A stretch of 64,000 nt of DNA from Lacinutrix sp. 5H-3-7-4. Its GTDB lineage: Bacteria > Bacteroidota > Bacteroidia > Flavobacteriales > Flavobacteriaceae. The DNA lies in assembly GCF_000211855.2 (NCBI RefSeq), contig NC_015638.1, positions 434,001 through 498,000 of the forward strand. Reading direction: 5' to 3'. Positions within the stretch are counted from its first letter, which is position 1; each line of letters starts with the position of its first letter. Of the stretch, positions 809-63,216 are shown in pieces. The position numbers and the translations under genes were made by a program. The notes beneath the pieces are model-generated. The model saw nothing but the letters and a program-made list of their open reading frames with translations. It did no database searches and was not told the origin of the DNA.

Positions 809-910
809 TTTAAATTGTTTTTTTGAGAGTGATTGTGAATTAAGGTCTAAATCTTATCCTTCGACAATCGTAGTTCCCTCATTAATACTTGATTATTATT
901 TTTCAGTTTG

Positions 911-4098: not shown

Positions 4099-4281
4099 TT
4101 ATTTAGTTTCTTCTACAGAAACTAAGTGATTAACTTTTCTAATCATTCCTAATATATTAGGAGTGTCTTCGTGCTCAATAGTTTGACCAACCTTTTTTAA
4201 TCCTAAAGCTAATAATGTTAACTTTTGTCTTTTTGTACGGTTGATTGCGCTCTTAACTTTTGTTACTTTTATTTTTGCCAT
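4099..4281 (-). CDS. rpmD: 50S ribosomal protein L30 (uL30)
   Basis: A 60-residue protein: MAKIKVTKVKSAINRTKRQKLTLLALGLKKVGQTIEHEDTP, then ILGMIRKVNHLVSVEE. The order of strand, helix and GL(K/R)K(V/I) turn is that of bacterial L30, which is absent from some lineages but kept here. It sits between rpsE (11 bases) and rplO (14 bases) in the spc block. Confidence 0.97.
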   Translation of the reverse strand: MAKIKVTKVKSAINRTKRQKLTLLALGLKKVGQTIEHEDTPNILGMIRKVNHLVSVEETK

Positions 4282-4292
4282 TTCTGTAAATA

Positions 4293-4817
4293 TTAACCGT
4301 TAAAAACTTTCTCTAATGAAATTCCTCTCTCACGAGCAATAGCTTCTGCACTTCTTAATTGCAATAATGCATCAAAAGTTGCTTTAACTACGTTATGTGG
4401 GTTTGATGATCCTTGAGATTTAGATAATACATCATGTACTCCTACTGCTTCTAAAACTGTTCTTACAGCTCCACCAGCAATTACTCCTGTACCAGGAGCT
4501 GCAGGAATGATGTTTACTCTTGCTCCACCAAATTTACCTTTTTGTTCGTGTGGTAAAGTTCCTTTAATGATAGGAATACGAACTAAGTTCTTTTTAGCAT
4601 CTTCAATAGCTTTTGCAATTGCACTAGCTACATCTTTAGATTTTCCTAAACCGTGTCCTACTACACCTGCTTCATCACCAACCACTACGATTGCTGAAAA
4701 ACCAAATGCTCTACCACCTTTTGTTACTTTAGTAACTCTTTGTACACCAACTAAACGATCTTTAAGATCTAATCCACTTGGTTTTACTAACTCTGCGCTT
4801 TTGTATTTTTGATACAT
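4293..4817 (-). CDS. rpsE: 30S ribosomal protein S5 (uS5)
   Basis: A 174-residue protein. The double-stranded-RNA-binding N-domain is at about residues 17-80 ([25 protein letters not shown], then [19 protein letters not shown]). The C-terminal domain carries the conserved [21 protein letters not shown] and [19 protein letters not shown] segments. S5 helps hold decoding fidelity at the S4-S5 interface and contributes to mRNA unwinding. It starts 6 bases after rplR. Confidence 0.97.
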
Positions 4818-4823
4818 AATTTC

Positions 4824-5180
4824 TTAGAATTTAAGTCCTGCTTCTCTAGCTCCTTCAGCTAATGATTTTACTCTACCATGATATAAATATCCACCTCTAT
4901 CAAAAGAAATAGTATCTATTCCAGCTTTAATTGCTTTTTCGGCAACTGACTTACCTACTAATGTAGCTACTTCACTTTTATTACCTTTTGCAGAACTAAT
5001 GTCTTTATCTCTAGAAGAAGCTGCTACTAAAGTTTTACCAGTAACATCATCAACAATTTGAGCATAAATTTCTTTATTACTTCTATAAACAGCTAATCGC
5101 GGTCTTGCTCCTGTACCAGAAACAACCTTACGGATTCTGCTTTTTATTCTTAGTCTTCTTTCGTTTTTTGTTAACGCCAT
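4824..5180 (-). CDS. rplR: 50S ribosomal protein L18 (uL18)
   Basis: A 118-residue protein: basic N-terminus ([20 protein letters not shown]), then [20 protein letters not shown] and the C-terminal [26 protein letters not shown] signature. L18 binds 5S rRNA with L5 and helps dock it on the large subunit. It is followed by rpsE and preceded by rplF with a 10-base gap. Confidence 0.97.
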
Positions 5181-54687: not shown

Positions 54688-54718
54688 AGGCCTTATCAAG
54701 ATGTTCTTAATAAGGCCT
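54688..54718 (-). terminator. terminator downstream of queA
   Basis: On the minus strand AGGCCTTAT, a 13-base loop and ATAAGGCCT form a nine-base-pair stem followed by TTTTATATT. It starts 22 bases after the queA stop and probably ends its transcript before the rlmN promoter. Confidence 0.7.
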
Positions 54719-59030: not shown

Positions 59031-60113
59031 TTATCCTTTAATAATTTTCTCTTGGTGATTTATAGACTCTTGGTGAACGGCTTTAAAAACTTTTAAAATA
59101 AATTCTTCACTAAGGTTCTTTTCATCTCCTTGAAGTATCATTTTACCTAAAATCTCATTCCAGCGTTTGCTTTGTAAAACTGCAACATTTTTTTGTTTTT
59201 TAAGCTTACCAATACTATCTGCCACTTCCATTCTTTTTCCCATTAAATCTATAAGTTGATTATCTACAACATCTATTTGGGCTCTTAAATTTGCTAATTC
59301 TTGATTGTACTCTGCTTCTGGATCTGTTTCTTTTCTAATTTTTAAATCCTGCATCATTTGTATTAATGCTTTTGGTGTTACTTGTTGTGCAGCATCACTC
59401 CAAGCATTGTCTGGATCAAAATGAGTTTCAATCATTAAACCATCGAAATTTAAATCTAGTGCGGTTTGAGACACATCAAAAACCATATCTCTTTTTCCTG
59501 TAATGTGAGATGGATCGTTTATTAATGGTAAATCTGGAAATCTATTTTGAAACTCGATTGCTAGTTGCCATTCTGGGATATTTCTATATTTTGTTTTTTC
59601 GTATGTTGAAAAACCTCTATGTATTGCACCTAAATTTTTAATTCCTGCAGTGTATAATCGCTCTATACCGCCTAACCATAGAGCTAAATCTGGATTAACT
59701 GGGTTTTTTACTAAAACAATTTTATCTGTTCCTGCTAAAGCATCTGCCAATTCCTGCATTATAAATGGACTTACTGTAGATCGTGCACCAATCCATAATA
59801 AATCTACATCGTTTTCTAAAGCTAGTTTTACATGCGTTGCATTAGCAACTTCTGTACAGGTTTTCATACCTGTTTCTTCTTTTACTTTTTTAAGCCATTT
59901 TAAACCTAAAGCTCCAACACCTTCAAAATTTCCTGGACGCGTTCTTGGCTTCCAAATTCCAGCTCTATAGTAACTAACATCTGTATCTTTAAGCTCATGA
60001 GCTATTTTTAAAACTTGCTCTTCAGTCTCTGCACTACAAGGTCCAGCAATTACTAATGGATGATCTAACTGCATGTCATTCAACCAATTTCTCATTTCTT
60101 TTTTATTTTCCAT
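59031..60113 (-). CDS. bifunctional DAHP synthase/chorismate mutase
   Basis: A 360-residue fusion. The N-terminal part (about 1-265) is a KDO8P/DAHP-synthase family barrel (PLVIAGPCSAETEEQVLKIA, YRAGIWKPRTRPGNFEGVGALGL, LVKNPVNPDLALWLGGIERL, NDPSHITGKR). It condenses phosphoenolpyruvate and erythrose 4-phosphate. The C-terminal part (about 270-355) is an AroQ-type chorismate mutase (LRAQIDVVDNQLIDLMGKRMEVADSIGKLKKQKNVAVLQSKRW). Combining the first committed step with the Phe/Tyr branch point fits its place between tyrA and rsgA. Feedback inhibition is likely through the mutase domain, by analogy. Confidence 0.93.
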   Translation of the reverse strand: MENKKEMRNWLNDMQLDHPLVIAGPCSAETEEQVLKIAHELKDTDVSYYRAGIWKPRTRPGNFEGVGALGLKWLKKVKEETGMKTCTEVANATHVKLALENDVDLLWIGARSTVSPFIMQELADALAGTDKIVLVKNPVNPDLALWLGGIERLYTAGIKNLGAIHRGFSTYEKTKYRNIPEWQLAIEFQNRFPDLPLINDPSHITGKRDMVFDVSQTALDLNFDGLMIETHFDPDNAWSDAAQQVTPKALIQMMQDLKIRKETDPEAEYNQELANLRAQIDVVDNQLIDLMGKRMEVADSIGKLKKQKNVAVLQSKRWNEILGKMILQGDEKNLSEEFILKVFKAVHQESINHQEKIIKG

Positions 60114-60171: not shown

Positions 60172-61026
60172 TTACTGTATTCCGTTTAATATTTGTTTAA
60201 TATAATTGGTGTCTTGCATTTCGTTATAAACACCATCATAATTATCGTCTTCTATTAATTTTTTAAATTGTGAAAGGTTTGCGATATAGTCGTTTAATGT
60301 TTCTATTACATTACTTTTATTATGTTTAAAAATTGGTGCCCACATAGCTGGACTACTTTTTGCTAACCGCACTGTGCTTTCAAAGCCAGAGCCAGCCATA
60401 TCGAATATATCTCTTTCATTTTTTTCTTTTTCAATTACTGTTTTTCCCAACATAAATGCACTAATATGTGATAAATGAGACATGTATGCTATATGTTTAT
60501 CATGAGATTCGGGATTCATATAACGCATGCGCATTCCAATATCTGTAAATAAATTAAGCGCTTTTTCTTGGAGCTTAAATGCTGTTTTTTCTACTTCACA
60601 AACAATATTTGTTTTGTGCTGAAATAGGTTTTTTATTGCTGCTTTTGGTCCAGAAAATTCTGTTCCTGCAATTGGATGCATGGCTAAAAAATTTCTTCTC
60701 TTATTATGATTTTTAATAGCTTCACATATTGTTAGTTTAGTAGAACCTACATCTACTACTAACCCAAAATCTGAAACTTTATCTAATACCTCTGGTAAAA
60801 TGGCAATAGTTGCATCTACAGGAATTGCTATAATTACTAAGTCTGCTTTATCTAAATCTGTAAGTGTTGCTTTTTTATTTATTATATTTAATTCTAAAGC
60901 TAAATCTAAATTTTCTGGTTTTGTATCTATACCAAAAATTGTAGCATTTGGTCTAGCTTCTTTAATATCTAAAGCCAAACTACCACCTATTAAACCAATA
61001 CCAATTATATATATATTATTTATCAT
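60172..61026 (-). CDS. tyrA: prephenate dehydrogenase
   Basis: A 284-residue NAD(P)-binding enzyme. The Rossmann glycine motif is IYIIGIGLIGGSLALDI. The prephenate-binding block has FLAMHPIAGTEFSGPKAA and HIAYMSHLSHISAFMLG, then GSGFESTVRLAKSSPAMWAPIF. It oxidises prephenate to 4-hydroxyphenylpyruvate for tyrosine. It overlaps the upstream aminotransferase by 4 bases (ATGA), so translation is coupled. Confidence 0.93.
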   Translation of the reverse strand: MINNIYIIGIGLIGGSLALDIKEARPNATIFGIDTKPENLDLALELNIINKKATLTDLDKADLVIIAIPVDATIAILPEVLDKVSDFGLVVDVGSTKLTICEAIKNHNKRRNFLAMHPIAGTEFSGPKAAIKNLFQHKTNIVCEVEKTAFKLQEKALNLFTDIGMRMRYMNPESHDKHIAYMSHLSHISAFMLGKTVIEKEKNERDIFDMAGSGFESTVRLAKSSPAMWAPIFKHNKSNVIETLNDYIANLSQFKKLIEDDNYDGVYNEMQDTNYIKQILNGIQ

Positions 61027-62162
61027 ACTCTTGCAATCGCTTCTTCTATATCTTCACTATTTGCACATAAAGAAAAACGCACATATCCTTCTCCAGCAGA
61101 ACCAAAAACAGTTCCTGGTGCAATAAAAATAAAATGATTATTTAATAAAGTATCTGTAAATTCTTCTGCTTTAATTCCTGAAGGTAATTTAGCCCAAACA
61201 AACAGTCCTATATTTTCTTTTTTAAATGTACAGTTTAGTTTTGTTGCTAATTCCCAAACTAATTTTCGTCTTTGTCTGTATACATTATTTAAACTTTGAT
61301 ACCACAATTCTGAACAATTTAAAGCTTCTATTGCACCTTTTTGAATACCGAAAAACATACCAGAATCCATATTGCTTTTCACTTTTAACACTGCATTTAT
61401 AAATGTTTGGTTACCAACCAGCATACCTACACGCCAACCAGCCATATTAAAGGTTTTACTTAAGGAGTTTAACTCTAAACATACATCTTTTGCTCCTTTT
61501 ATGCTTAATATACTTAATGGCTTATCATTTAAAATAAAGCTGTATGGATTATCGTTAACTAATAAAATATTATGCCTTTTTGCAAAGGCTACTAATTTTT
61601 TAAACTGCTCTTCGTTTCCTTTTGCTCCCGTTGGCATATGGGGATAATTTATCCACATAATTTTAACTTGAGATAGGTTTGTAGTTTCTAAAAGTTCTAA
61701 ATCTGGAAACCAGTTATTATCATCTTTTAAATCGTAAAAAACAGGTTCTGCTTCTAGTAATTTAGTTACAGAAGCATACGTTGGATAGCCTGGGTTTGGA
61801 ATTAAAACTTTATCTCTTGGATTTAAAAACGCCATAGAAATATGCATAATACCTTCTTTACTTCCCATTAACGGTAAAACTTCTGTATTTGTATCTAAGA
61901 AAACATTAAAATGTTCACGGTAAAAACCTGTAATTGCACTTCTTAATTCTGGTAAGCCTTGATAACTTTGGTATTTATGTGCATTAGCATCTTTTAAACT
62001 ATTAACTATAGCTTTTACTACCTGACTTGGTGGCTGCAAATCTGGACTACCAATACCTAAATTAATTATTGGCTTACCTGTATCTTTAAGAAGTCTTACT
62101 TCTTTTAGTTTTTTTGAAAAGTAGTACTCTTCAACAGTTTGTAATCTTTTAGCTAATTCCAT
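61023..62162 (-). CDS. PLP-dependent aminotransferase, class I (aromatic/aspartate type)
   Basis: A 379-residue fold-type I aminotransferase. Conserved segments: LGIGSPDLQPP, YPTYASVTKLLEAEPVFYDL, NYPHMPTGAKGNEEQFKKL and NDNPYSFIL. The PLP lysine is in LNSLSKTFNMAGWRVGMLVG (SKT...GWR). The position between pheA and tyrA suggests transamination of phenylpyruvate and 4-hydroxyphenylpyruvate to Phe and Tyr, though a LL-DAP-like or aspartate specificity is not excluded by sequence. It overlaps pheA by one base. Confidence 0.9.
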   Translation of the reverse strand: MELAKRLQTVEEYYFSKKLKEVRLLKDTGKPIINLGIGSPDLQPPSQVVKAIVNSLKDANAHKYQSYQGLPELRSAITGFYREHFNVFLDTNTEVLPLMGSKEGIMHISMAFLNPRDKVLIPNPGYPTYASVTKLLEAEPVFYDLKDDNNWFPDLELLETTNLSQVKIMWINYPHMPTGAKGNEEQFKKLVAFAKRHNILLVNDNPYSFILNDKPLSILSIKGAKDVCLELNSLSKTFNMAGWRVGMLVGNQTFINAVLKVKSNMDSGMFFGIQKGAIEALNCSELWYQSLNNVYRQRRKLVWELATKLNCTFKKENIGLFVWAKLPSGIKAEEFTDTLLNNHFIFIAPGTVFGSAGEGYVRFSLCANSEDIEEAIARV

Positions 62163-62986
62163 TACACTTTAGCGTTTTTATATTCTCCTAATATTTTAAA
62201 ATGTGTGGCCATTATTTTTATTATTGCTTTCGCTTTTTCAAAATCTTTATAGTCTTGAAAAGTCACATCTACAAAAAATGAATAGAGCCATGGTGTTTCA
62301 ACAACAGGTAATGACTGGATTTTTGTTAAACTTAGTTTACAATCACTCATTACATTTAATAAAGCAGCTAAACTTCCTCGTTTATGGTCTAATTGAAATT
62401 TAATTGAAGCTTTATTTATGTTTTTTAAATGACGCTCTGCTTTTAATTTTACTATTACAAAACGTGTTTCATTATGTTTTATACTCTGAATGCTTTTGGC
62501 TATAATATCTAGTTTAAAAATTTTAGCTGCCAATGTACTTGCTATTGCTGCTGTCTCTTTTGTATTATTTGTGGCTATTCGCTTTGCTACATCTGCAGTA
62601 TCCTTATCTTCTATTAGTTTTATATGCGGATAATTTTTAAAAAAAGCTTTACACTGCAACAATGCCATTGGGTGCGAGTAAACCTCTTTTATATCTTTAA
62701 TGGTTTGACCAGGCAATACCATTAATTGGTGTTGAATATCTAAATAATACTCTCCAACTATTTGCAAGTTGTGATTATCTATTAAAGCATAATTTGGAAT
62801 TATAGAACCTGCTATTGAATTCTCGAGCGCCATAATTGCGGCATCGGTTTTACCACTTAATAAGGCGTTTACCGTTTCATCAAAAGACAAACACTCTTCA
62901 ACAACTGTTGCTTCACCAAAATATTCTTGTGATACTATATGATGAAAAGACCCTTGTATTCCTTGTATTGCTACTGCTTTATTCAA
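62162..62986 (-). CDS. pheA: prephenate dehydratase
   Basis: A 274-residue enzyme, without an attached mutase (which is fused to the DAHP synthase here). The catalytic domain has AIQGIQGSFHHIVSQEYFGEA, DAAIMALENSIAGSIIPNYALI, YSHPMALLQCKAFFK and KHNETRFVIVKL. A C-terminal ACT domain (about 195-270: KASIKFQLDHKRGSLAALLNVMSDCKLSLTKIQSLPV, WLYSFFVDV) binds Phe for feedback control. The start is TTG at 62986, matching the family N-terminus MNKAVAIQG. A three-codon ORF ATG-GCA-AGT-TGA overlaps it. It is the first gene after the attenuator. Confidence 0.94.
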   Translation of the reverse strand: MNKAVAIQGIQGSFHHIVSQEYFGEATVVEECLSFDETVNALLSGKTDAAIMALENSIAGSIIPNYALIDNHNLQIVGEYYLDIQHQLMVLPGQTIKDIKEVYSHPMALLQCKAFFKNYPHIKLIEDKDTADVAKRIATNNTKETAAIASTLAAKIFKLDIIAKSIQSIKHNETRFVIVKLKAERHLKNINKASIKFQLDHKRGSLAALLNVMSDCKLSLTKIQSLPVVETPWLYSFFVDVTFQDYKDFEKAKAIIKIMATHFKILGEYKNAKV

Positions 62987-62994
62987 CTTGCCAT
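62983..62994 (-). other. three-codon ORF overlapping the pheA start
   Basis: On the minus strand ATGGCAAGTTGA encodes Met-Ala-Ser-stop. Its TGA overlaps the pheA TTG initiator in TTGA. It could load ribosomes that then reinitiate at the weak TTG, or could simply be chance. It lies 16 bases after the T-run of the attenuator terminator. Confidence 0.35.
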
Positions 62995-63010
62995 GTTTTA
63001 ATTATATTCC

Positions 63011-63042
63011 AAAAAAAAAGTCCCGATAAAAAATCGAGACTT
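63011..63042 (-). terminator. attenuator terminator of the aromatic operon
   Basis: In the minus-strand RNA, AAGUCUCGAU, a short U-rich loop and AUCGGGACUU form a ten-base-pair stem (one G-U pair) followed by at least seven U. The pair that is G-U on this strand is a C-A mismatch on the other, so the element is a terminator in this direction only. It begins 30 bases after the stop of the leader peptide ORF. Its left arm GUCUCG can alternatively pair with CGAGAC inside that ORF. Confidence 0.88.
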
Positions 63043-63071
63043 AAGTTTAAATATATGTTTTTAATCAAAAA

Positions 63072-63149
63072 TTACACATACAGCGTCTCGTTCTTTTTGC
63101 TAAAAAAGAAGTAAAACCAGCTATAATATGTATTTTGTATTGTTCTCAT
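63072..63149 (-). CDS. aromatic amino acid operon leader peptide
   Basis: A 25-residue ORF starting at ATG 63149. Residues 7-16 read TYYSWFYFFF: eight aromatic codons among residues 8-16, including Tyr, Trp and Phe. It ends ETLYV-stop at 63072. A stretch of codons for the operon's own end products before a terminator is the hallmark of a transcription attenuation leader. Codons 20-22 (aaC GAG ACg) contain CGAGAC, which can pair with the left arm of the downstream terminator. A ribosome that reaches the stop masks this segment; one stalled at the aromatic codons frees it. It has a promoter about 40 bases upstream. Confidence 0.85.
   Translation of the reverse strand: MRTIQNTYYSWFYFFFSKKNETLYV
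63085..63090 (-). promoter_or_regulatory. antiterminator strand within the leader ORF
   Basis: CGAGAC in the minus-strand RNA is complementary to GUCUCG at 63040-63035, the left arm of the terminator. Upstream AAAAA can further pair with the U-stretch of the terminator loop, giving six plus five base pairs around a small internal loop. Formation excludes the terminator. No separate anti-antiterminator hairpin is obvious; the translating ribosome itself would cover this segment. Confidence 0.7.
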
Positions 63150-63186
63150 CTATAATTTTCGCGTGAGCGATAATTTATTTATAGTG

Positions 63187-63216
63187 CTAAAGTAAATAAT
63201 TATTTCACAAATCAAA
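63187..63216 (-). promoter_or_regulatory. promoter of the aromatic operon leader
   Basis: On the minus strand TTTG (63216-63213), 18 bases, TACTTTAG (63194-63187), one mismatch from TAnnTTTG. Transcription would start near 63180, about 30 bases before the leader ATG, and run about 195 bases to the pheA start. The 62987-63319 gap thus holds the attenuator on this strand and the gldA promoter on the other. Confidence 0.65.

Follow-up and report, generated by a model that had tools for sequence, protein, structure and literature searches.

The window, the whole 64,000-nucleotide stretch of Lacinutrix sp. 5H-3-7-4 DNA that was analysed, carries on its minus strand an aromatic operon preceded by a short open reading frame (ORF) and a terminator hairpin. 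Identification of the genes and their domains bore out an earlier, sequence-only reading of this DNA, which had placed a leader 5' of pheA, an aminotransferase gene, tyrA and a DAHP synthase/chorismate mutase gene. The features of the locus are as follows.

59031..60113, minus strand: DAHP synthase-chorismate mutase fusion
60172..61026, minus strand: tyrA, prephenate dehydrogenase
61023..62162, minus strand: class I/II aminotransferase
62162..62986, minus strand: pheA, prephenate dehydratase (Pfam PF00800), TTG start
63011..63017, minus strand: U-tail of the terminator
63018..63042, minus strand: intrinsic terminator hairpin, arms 3 and 4 (from the sequence and the alignment of relatives)
63051..63058, minus strand: ACAUAUAU, which extends the predicted antiterminator in the Lacinutrix genome (from folding)
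63074..63081, minus strand: arm 2b, GUAUGUGU, pairing with arm 1 or, in the antiterminator, with 63058-63051
63085..63090, minus strand: arm 2, CGAGAC, within codons 20-22, the complement of arm 3
63102..63128, minus strand: putative sensing codons 8-16, Tyr Tyr Ser Trp Phe Tyr Phe Phe Phe
63126..63133, minus strand: arm 1, AUACAUAU, pairing with 63081-63074 (from covariation and the geometry in other elements)
63149-63072, minus strand: leader ORF, MRTIQNTYYSWFYFFFSKKNETLYV, 25 codons from ATG to TAA (from the sequence; kept in relatives, with third-position changes mostly synonymous)
63187..63215, minus strand: putative promoter, TTG (63215-63213), an 18-nt spacer and TACTTTAG (63194-63187)

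The start of pheA lies 31 nt 3' of the terminator hairpin. It is overlapped by a three-codon ORF (ATG GCA AGT TGA, window positions 62983-62994, minus strand), whose ATG is ACG in locus L002 and so is not conserved there. Before position 54718 only weak terminator-like sites were found on the minus strand (61589, 60353 and 54842), and from the sequence it is possible that leader control reaches aroA further downstream.

The 25-codon ORF with eight aromatic codons at residues 8-16, as first described, is present and begins with the ATG at 63149 (minus strand). Of the window's 871 ORFs that start with ATG and span 8-45 codons, it was the only one with eight aromatic residues out of nine, and two others had seven. 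When the best ORF was scored in each of 3060 dinucleotide shuffles of 300-nt upstream regions, a score of 8 was obtained in none, 7 in 2, 6 in 27 and 5 in 183, the last of these being a low estimate of the chance rate because the elements themselves were sought in up to 700 nt. Among the 153 distinct elements described below, 149 had a score of at least 6 aromatic residues out of 9. The fold energy of the leader RNA was 4 s.d. below that of its own shuffles.

The proposed promoter 5' of the ORF fared less well. A candidate box is there, fitting at five of six positions the TAnnTTTG consensus given in the accessible portion of PMC9723704, and in 9/10 of the same-genus rows listed the box chosen, 13-37 nt 5' of the ATG, was TACTTTAG or differed from it by one letter. 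The fit is weak taken alone, as a best match of 5/6 was also obtained in 64% of shuffled stretches. The leader was also said to operate without a Shine-Dalgarno sequence, and the comparison agreed with this, an SD-like 4-mer (GGAG, AGGA or GAGG) being found near 0/153 leader ATGs.

As had been noted, arm 2 of the leader (CGAGAC, 63090-63085) is fully complementary to GUCUCG (63040-63035), which belongs to the terminator's left arm. The claim that the terminator acts in the minus direction was upheld by the G-U pair in its stem and by many G-U cells over 63 aligned relatives, which indicate selection on the minus-direction RNA because they would be mismatches on the opposite strand. The terminator cannot serve the upstream gene, gldA, because that gene is divergent. 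Folding of the window RNA up to arm 3 with a ribosome at Trp11, codon 14 or Phe16 gave the antiterminator (-12.3 to -13.6 kcal/mol), and with the ribosome at the stop codon it gave no structure. Once arm 4 was present the terminator was the minimum-energy fold in all ribosome states, the stalled ones included, so the choice between the two structures must be kinetic. In the 63-sequence alignment the ACAUAUAU extension did not show up as generally present.

Conservation in related genomes, which had been named as a check, was found by alignment and by reading upstream of pheA: the ORF, its aromatic codons and the alternative pairings are kept. We counted as a leader an ORF with at least 5 aromatic residues out of 9 together with a terminator. 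A PheA match was present in 46/60 genomes of the relatives sample, and the upstream DNA, read for all 46, had such an ORF and terminator in 42 (absent in G035, G047, G040 and G053). The named loci, the best 80 of at least 582 and mostly from Flavobacteriaceae, had both in 79/80, L108 being the exception; among those listed, the best PheA matches were Lacinutrix records.

In a sample of the class Bacteroidia, 42/149 genomes had a PheA match and 41 of these loci were read, a 44-residue match in G080 being left out. An ORF with at least 5/9 aromatic residues lay within 700 nt in 29/41 loci; a terminator by our criterion was not found in five of these 29 (L146, L149, L176, L178 and L180), and weak cases among the 29 include L138, L139 and L179. 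Re-examination of 13 loci that lacked a near leader, up to 5-8 kb upstream, gained one for two of them and for 11 did not. In the two class-sample genomes G147 and G176 the leader unit lies about 3.5 kb upstream of pheA, and in 10/41 class-sample loci no leader was found in the stretch examined.

The phylum sample, which overlaps the class sample, had a PheA match in 128/148 genomes, and the remainder was read in part. All of sixteen further loci had the ORF and terminator, including three in genomes listed outside the class. In a reading of 20 more loci, the ORF was present in one of two from the class and in 0/18 PheA loci from outside it; the AIQG start of the Bacteroidia-type PheA is missing in 17 of those 18, L205 being the one that has it. 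The loci L166, L167 and L168, in genomes listed outside the class, have a Bacteroidia-type PheA together with an aromatic leader and may represent transfer of the gene plus its switch.

A covariance model found a single site in each of 24/40 relatives. Every one was the pheA leader, and no other site reached E<=0.001 in this search, which scored just the best candidates from a first look. The model misses real leaders, such as those of G016, G019, G038, G044 and G050, where a leader was found by direct reading. The pattern TTYTAYTTYTWYTTY was rejected as a leader finder as its counts were near those of a reversed control, yet it pointed to the leaders of G147 and G176.

Several loci had unusual arrangements. 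Upstream of pheA in L044 (G059) are tandem leader-terminator units, both Phe-rich (MNNLVSTFRFFGFFFFRKEGAMS and MNQNTQQNFSFFGFFFFKWKSEAVD), which suggest two-step attenuation. In L018 and L064 the leader and terminator are 521 nt and 411 nt from pheA, respectively, much farther than in most relatives, and L018 has near-repeated short ORFs between leader and pheA.

With 35 that lacked the ORF and five that lacked a terminator set aside, and duplicates removed, the 202 upstream regions collected gave 153 distinct elements. When the whole leader was counted, Phe was found in 153/153, Tyr in 152/153 and Trp in 84/153; within the aromatic cluster the numbers were 153, 152 and 71. Trp occurs in 12/13 leaders of the Lacinutrix genus, L005 having Arg, and in 1/21 loci titled Flavobacterium (L097). 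On these counts of codons, the constant signal is taken to be Phe plus Tyr, with Trp varying by lineage. The aromatic codons are kept across relatives while the rest of the leader peptide drifts. Among 115 distinct 27-nt clusters, codon differences confined to the third position were synonymous in 7522/7693 pairwise cells, which are not independent events; such synonymy would not be expected of merely U-rich RNA.

The sequence-only reading had one leader sensing Phe, Tyr and Trp. Its Phe and Tyr parts stood, both being near-universal, and Trp did not stand as a general signal. A sensor that reads all three amino acids seems to us possible but somewhat doubtful. DAHP synthase catalyzes the first step toward all three aromatic amino acids and is encoded in this operon, the Lacinutrix leader has TGG at codon 11, and the frequency of Trp in the genus and in just over half of all elements is in keeping with such a sensor. 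Against it, Trp is missing from 69/153 elements, from 20/21 Flavobacterium-titled loci and from L005 of the same genus, and trpE in this genome has a Trp leader of its own, which matches the Rfam family Bacteroid-trp.

The pairings were examined across species in two ways. In the alignment-free comparison, an element's own arm 3 paired better with its arm 2 than foreign arms did on average (up to 40 per element) in 149/153 elements and in 48/51 arm-3 classes. Individual foreign arms often pair well too: those as good as the element's own made up at most 5% in 47/153 elements and at most 20% in 114/153. Examples of the matched arms 2 and 3 are CGAGAC/GTCTCG, AGGATT/AATCCT, AGCGGGA/TCCCGCT and GAGCGGTC/GACCGCTC.

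In the second comparison, the helices of 63 aligned sequences were set against 500 shuffles on five measures. Covariation, which the sequence-only reading had suggested looking for in the terminator stem, was strongest there, with standard pairs in 99.7% of helix 3:4 cells and all 500 shuffles beaten on all five measures. Helix 2:3 had 83.9% of cells paired and 28 double-change cells, and helix 1:2 had 83.3% and 48. Both exceeded all 500 shuffles in cells paired, double-change cells and covariation score, three measures that kinship of the sequences can inflate. In the two sturdier measures neither helix beat the shuffles: for pairs with a double change, 153 (2:3) and 25 (1:2) of the 500 were as high, and for pair types, 153 and 217. 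The column-wise counts for 2:3 were lowered because some rows have arm 2 shifted in the alignment. Helix 1:2 slid by +2 still had 69% of its cells paired, and a helix of differing sequence occupies roughly its place in Flavobacterium and other groups. The CGAGAC/GUCUCG pairing that had been proposed is supported across relatives by three measures and the own-arm test, and not by the other two measures.

The spacing of these parts was also regular. The distance from the last aromatic codon to the start of an arm 2 of at least 5 nt is 7-14 nt in 124/135 elements. For folding, the edge of the ribosome was taken as 8 nt beyond the A-site codon, which is an approximation; at a stop codon, the ribosome covers up to 12 nt after the stop, according to the available text of PMC4833913. 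In nascent RNA ending at arm 3, when the ribosome was held at the final aromatic codon, arm 3 was predicted to be sequestered (P>0.5) in 151/153 elements, with a median of 0.96. With the ribosome at the stop, sequestration was below 0.5 in 147/153 (median 0.06), a result that is partly trivial because little RNA remains. The shift from stalled to stop was toward a freer arm 3 in 153/153 elements, and among early-stop elements the ribosome at the stop failed to free arm 3 in 5/30. Of 1530 spacer-shuffled controls, 43% were above 0.5 (median 0.46). Helix 1:2 is present and partly covaries; without a ribosome, arm 3 was predicted to be free (sequestration below 0.5) in just 38/153 elements, and as the ribosome-free median was 0.75, default termination is not predicted for most elements.

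Computation on the window and its relatives has established the ORF, the terminator and the alternative pairings, along with their covariation and spacing. The leader has a cluster of end-product codons, a terminator between the ORF and the first structural gene, and a mutually exclusive helix 2:3. From the sequences, the pheA leader is very probably a transcription attenuator of the peptide-leader (trp/his/phe) type, the mechanism first suggested for it; the ORF, terminator, alternative pairings and conservation in relatives all support this assignment. We infer that the leader is translated and that stalling, termination and the regulatory response would proceed in the following manner. The attenuator would read the supply of charged tRNA-Phe and tRNA-Tyr, and perhaps tRNA-Trp in the Lacinutrix lineage, and would control the operon from pheA through the aminotransferase gene and tyrA to DAHP synthase/chorismate mutase. 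When the aromatic tRNAs are charged, the ribosome would reach the leader stop and cover arm 2, arm 3 would be free to pair with arm 4, and RNA polymerase would terminate at the U-tail (63017-63011). If Phe or Tyr were short, the ribosome would stall in codons 8-16, and arm 2, just past its footprint, would pair with arm 3 while arm 4 is still to be transcribed, so that the polymerase would read on into the operon.

Two other explanations of the conserved leader were weighed. The first is a nascent-peptide arrest sensor of the type known from TnaC, in which the peptide itself senses free Phe or Tyr and stalls the ribosome. A conserved short peptide 5' of the operon is what such a sensor would have, but the order and identity of the aromatic residues drift and the C-terminal residues track the RNA pairing (NET with CGAGAC, QDC with AGGATT, SRD with CCGGGAC), indicating that composition and RNA are kept and not one peptide motif; we regard it as very unlikely. 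Least credible of all is a constitutive terminator in U-rich RNA with the ORF as a by-product, since, for all that the region is AT-rich, UUU and UAU codons are cheap there and five-of-nine ORFs arose in 183/3060 shuffles, eight of nine arose in 0/3060, third-position changes are nearly all synonymous, arm 2 keeps a near-fixed distance from the codons, and the upstream gene is divergent so that the terminator serves no other transcript.

Peptide-leader attenuation has precedents. In E. coli, pheA has a Phe-rich leader and a terminator upstream, and the flavobacterial leader resembles it, and the corresponding Rfam family Phe_leader (RF01859), in that respect. Unlike the E. coli leader, it has Tyr codons as constant as Phe codons, its operon includes tyrA and DAHP synthase, and it has no SD-like sites. 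Six of 15 pheA leaders searched gave weak, sub-threshold matches to RF01859, the best being 38.8 bits in L096 against a gathering cut-off of 55. Membership of that family was rejected: 37/60 relatives had weak matches, 0/60 genomes had one over the cut-off, and among the places listed one was recognised at a pheA leader (G037:C70:12572-12700). The Bacteroid-trp family RF01692 (Weinberg 2010, PMC2864571, available portion) is likewise a peptide-leader element of Bacteroidetes and differs in having Trp codons and the trp operon. The pheA leader had no match to it, in the window at the gathering cut-off or in L001 at E<=1, and no match to any Rfam family at gathering.

The supposition that the arrangement was new to flavobacteria was not borne out. 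The available portion of PMC9723704 (2021), which mapped the transcriptome of F. psychrophilum, already reports "strong clues" for leader-peptide attenuation 5' of amino-acid operons, and structured 5' elements at pheA and hisG, which are also conserved in further genera and have no counterpart in Rfam. The pheA element there is named by gene, and its likeness to the Lacinutrix leader is one of description: the same gene, the same family of bacteria, a structured RNA and no Rfam hit. The accessible part of PMC7366714 describes leader-peptide-like ORFs in Bacteroides, and in that of Naville and Gautheret 2010 (PMC2965389) the authors say that they knew of no earlier demonstration of leader-peptide systems outside Proteobacteria and Actinobacteria. 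Beyond PMC9723704, no description of the pheA leader was found in the open-access literature. This is a classical mechanism at a locus that had already been flagged; what is added here are the codons, the three helices, the Phe plus Tyr signal, the wide spread and the movement with the operon. Lyubetsky et al. 2007 reportedly mentions Bacteroidetes, and that work or Lopatovskaya et al. 2010 (PubMed 20198868) may contain an earlier prediction.

The gene order behind the leader varies. Within 1.5 kb flanks, the aminotransferase gene adjoins pheA in 29/30 relatives loci, 80/80 named loci (the best 80 of at least 582) and 23/30 class loci. The G147 leader and its terminator stand first in a series of genes on one strand that encode DAHP synthase-chorismate mutase, DHQ synthase and EPSP synthase and are followed by pheA; in G176 those three genes stand in the same order (aroG/CM-aroB-aroA) behind a leader unit. 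Because the unit heads aroG-aroB-aroA-pheA in both genomes, the switch apparently keeps its link to the aromatic operon through changes in gene order. In L220 (G176) a second DAHP synthase-like gene (4112-5131), with 45% identity to the operon copy, lies just 5' of the relocated leader.

On balance we favour a broader reading, with less assurance than the assignment of the mechanism itself, in which aromatic biosynthesis in the class Bacteroidia was ancestrally regulated by a joint Phe plus Tyr attenuator that reads two amino acids (three in some lineages), stays at the head of the aromatic operon whichever gene comes first there as the order changes, and times the ribosome against the polymerase in bacteria that initiate translation without Shine-Dalgarno pairing. 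The attenuator offers a definite model, open to experiment, of how a large phylum controls its synthesis of aromatic amino acids. It also suggests that classical attenuation, dependent as it is on prompt translation of the leader, works without Shine-Dalgarno initiation.

Other leaders were found in the Lacinutrix genome. A His leader (MTFIQLHHHHFHTCTQAS) followed by a terminator precedes hisG (locus L171), and a Trp leader (MNSILNHTWWWTSRKTIRE) followed by a terminator precedes trpE (locus L172), the latter matching RF01692 at 55.5 bits against a cut-off of 49. Neither ilvD (L174) nor the second TrpE-family search match (L173) was seen to have a leader with a terminator in front of it. As the his and trp leaders look alike, attenuation may be a standard control of amino-acid operons there. 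Elsewhere in the window, positions 831-869 (minus strand) scored over the cut-off of RF03141, the S4-Flavobacteria ribosomal protein leader of Rfam.
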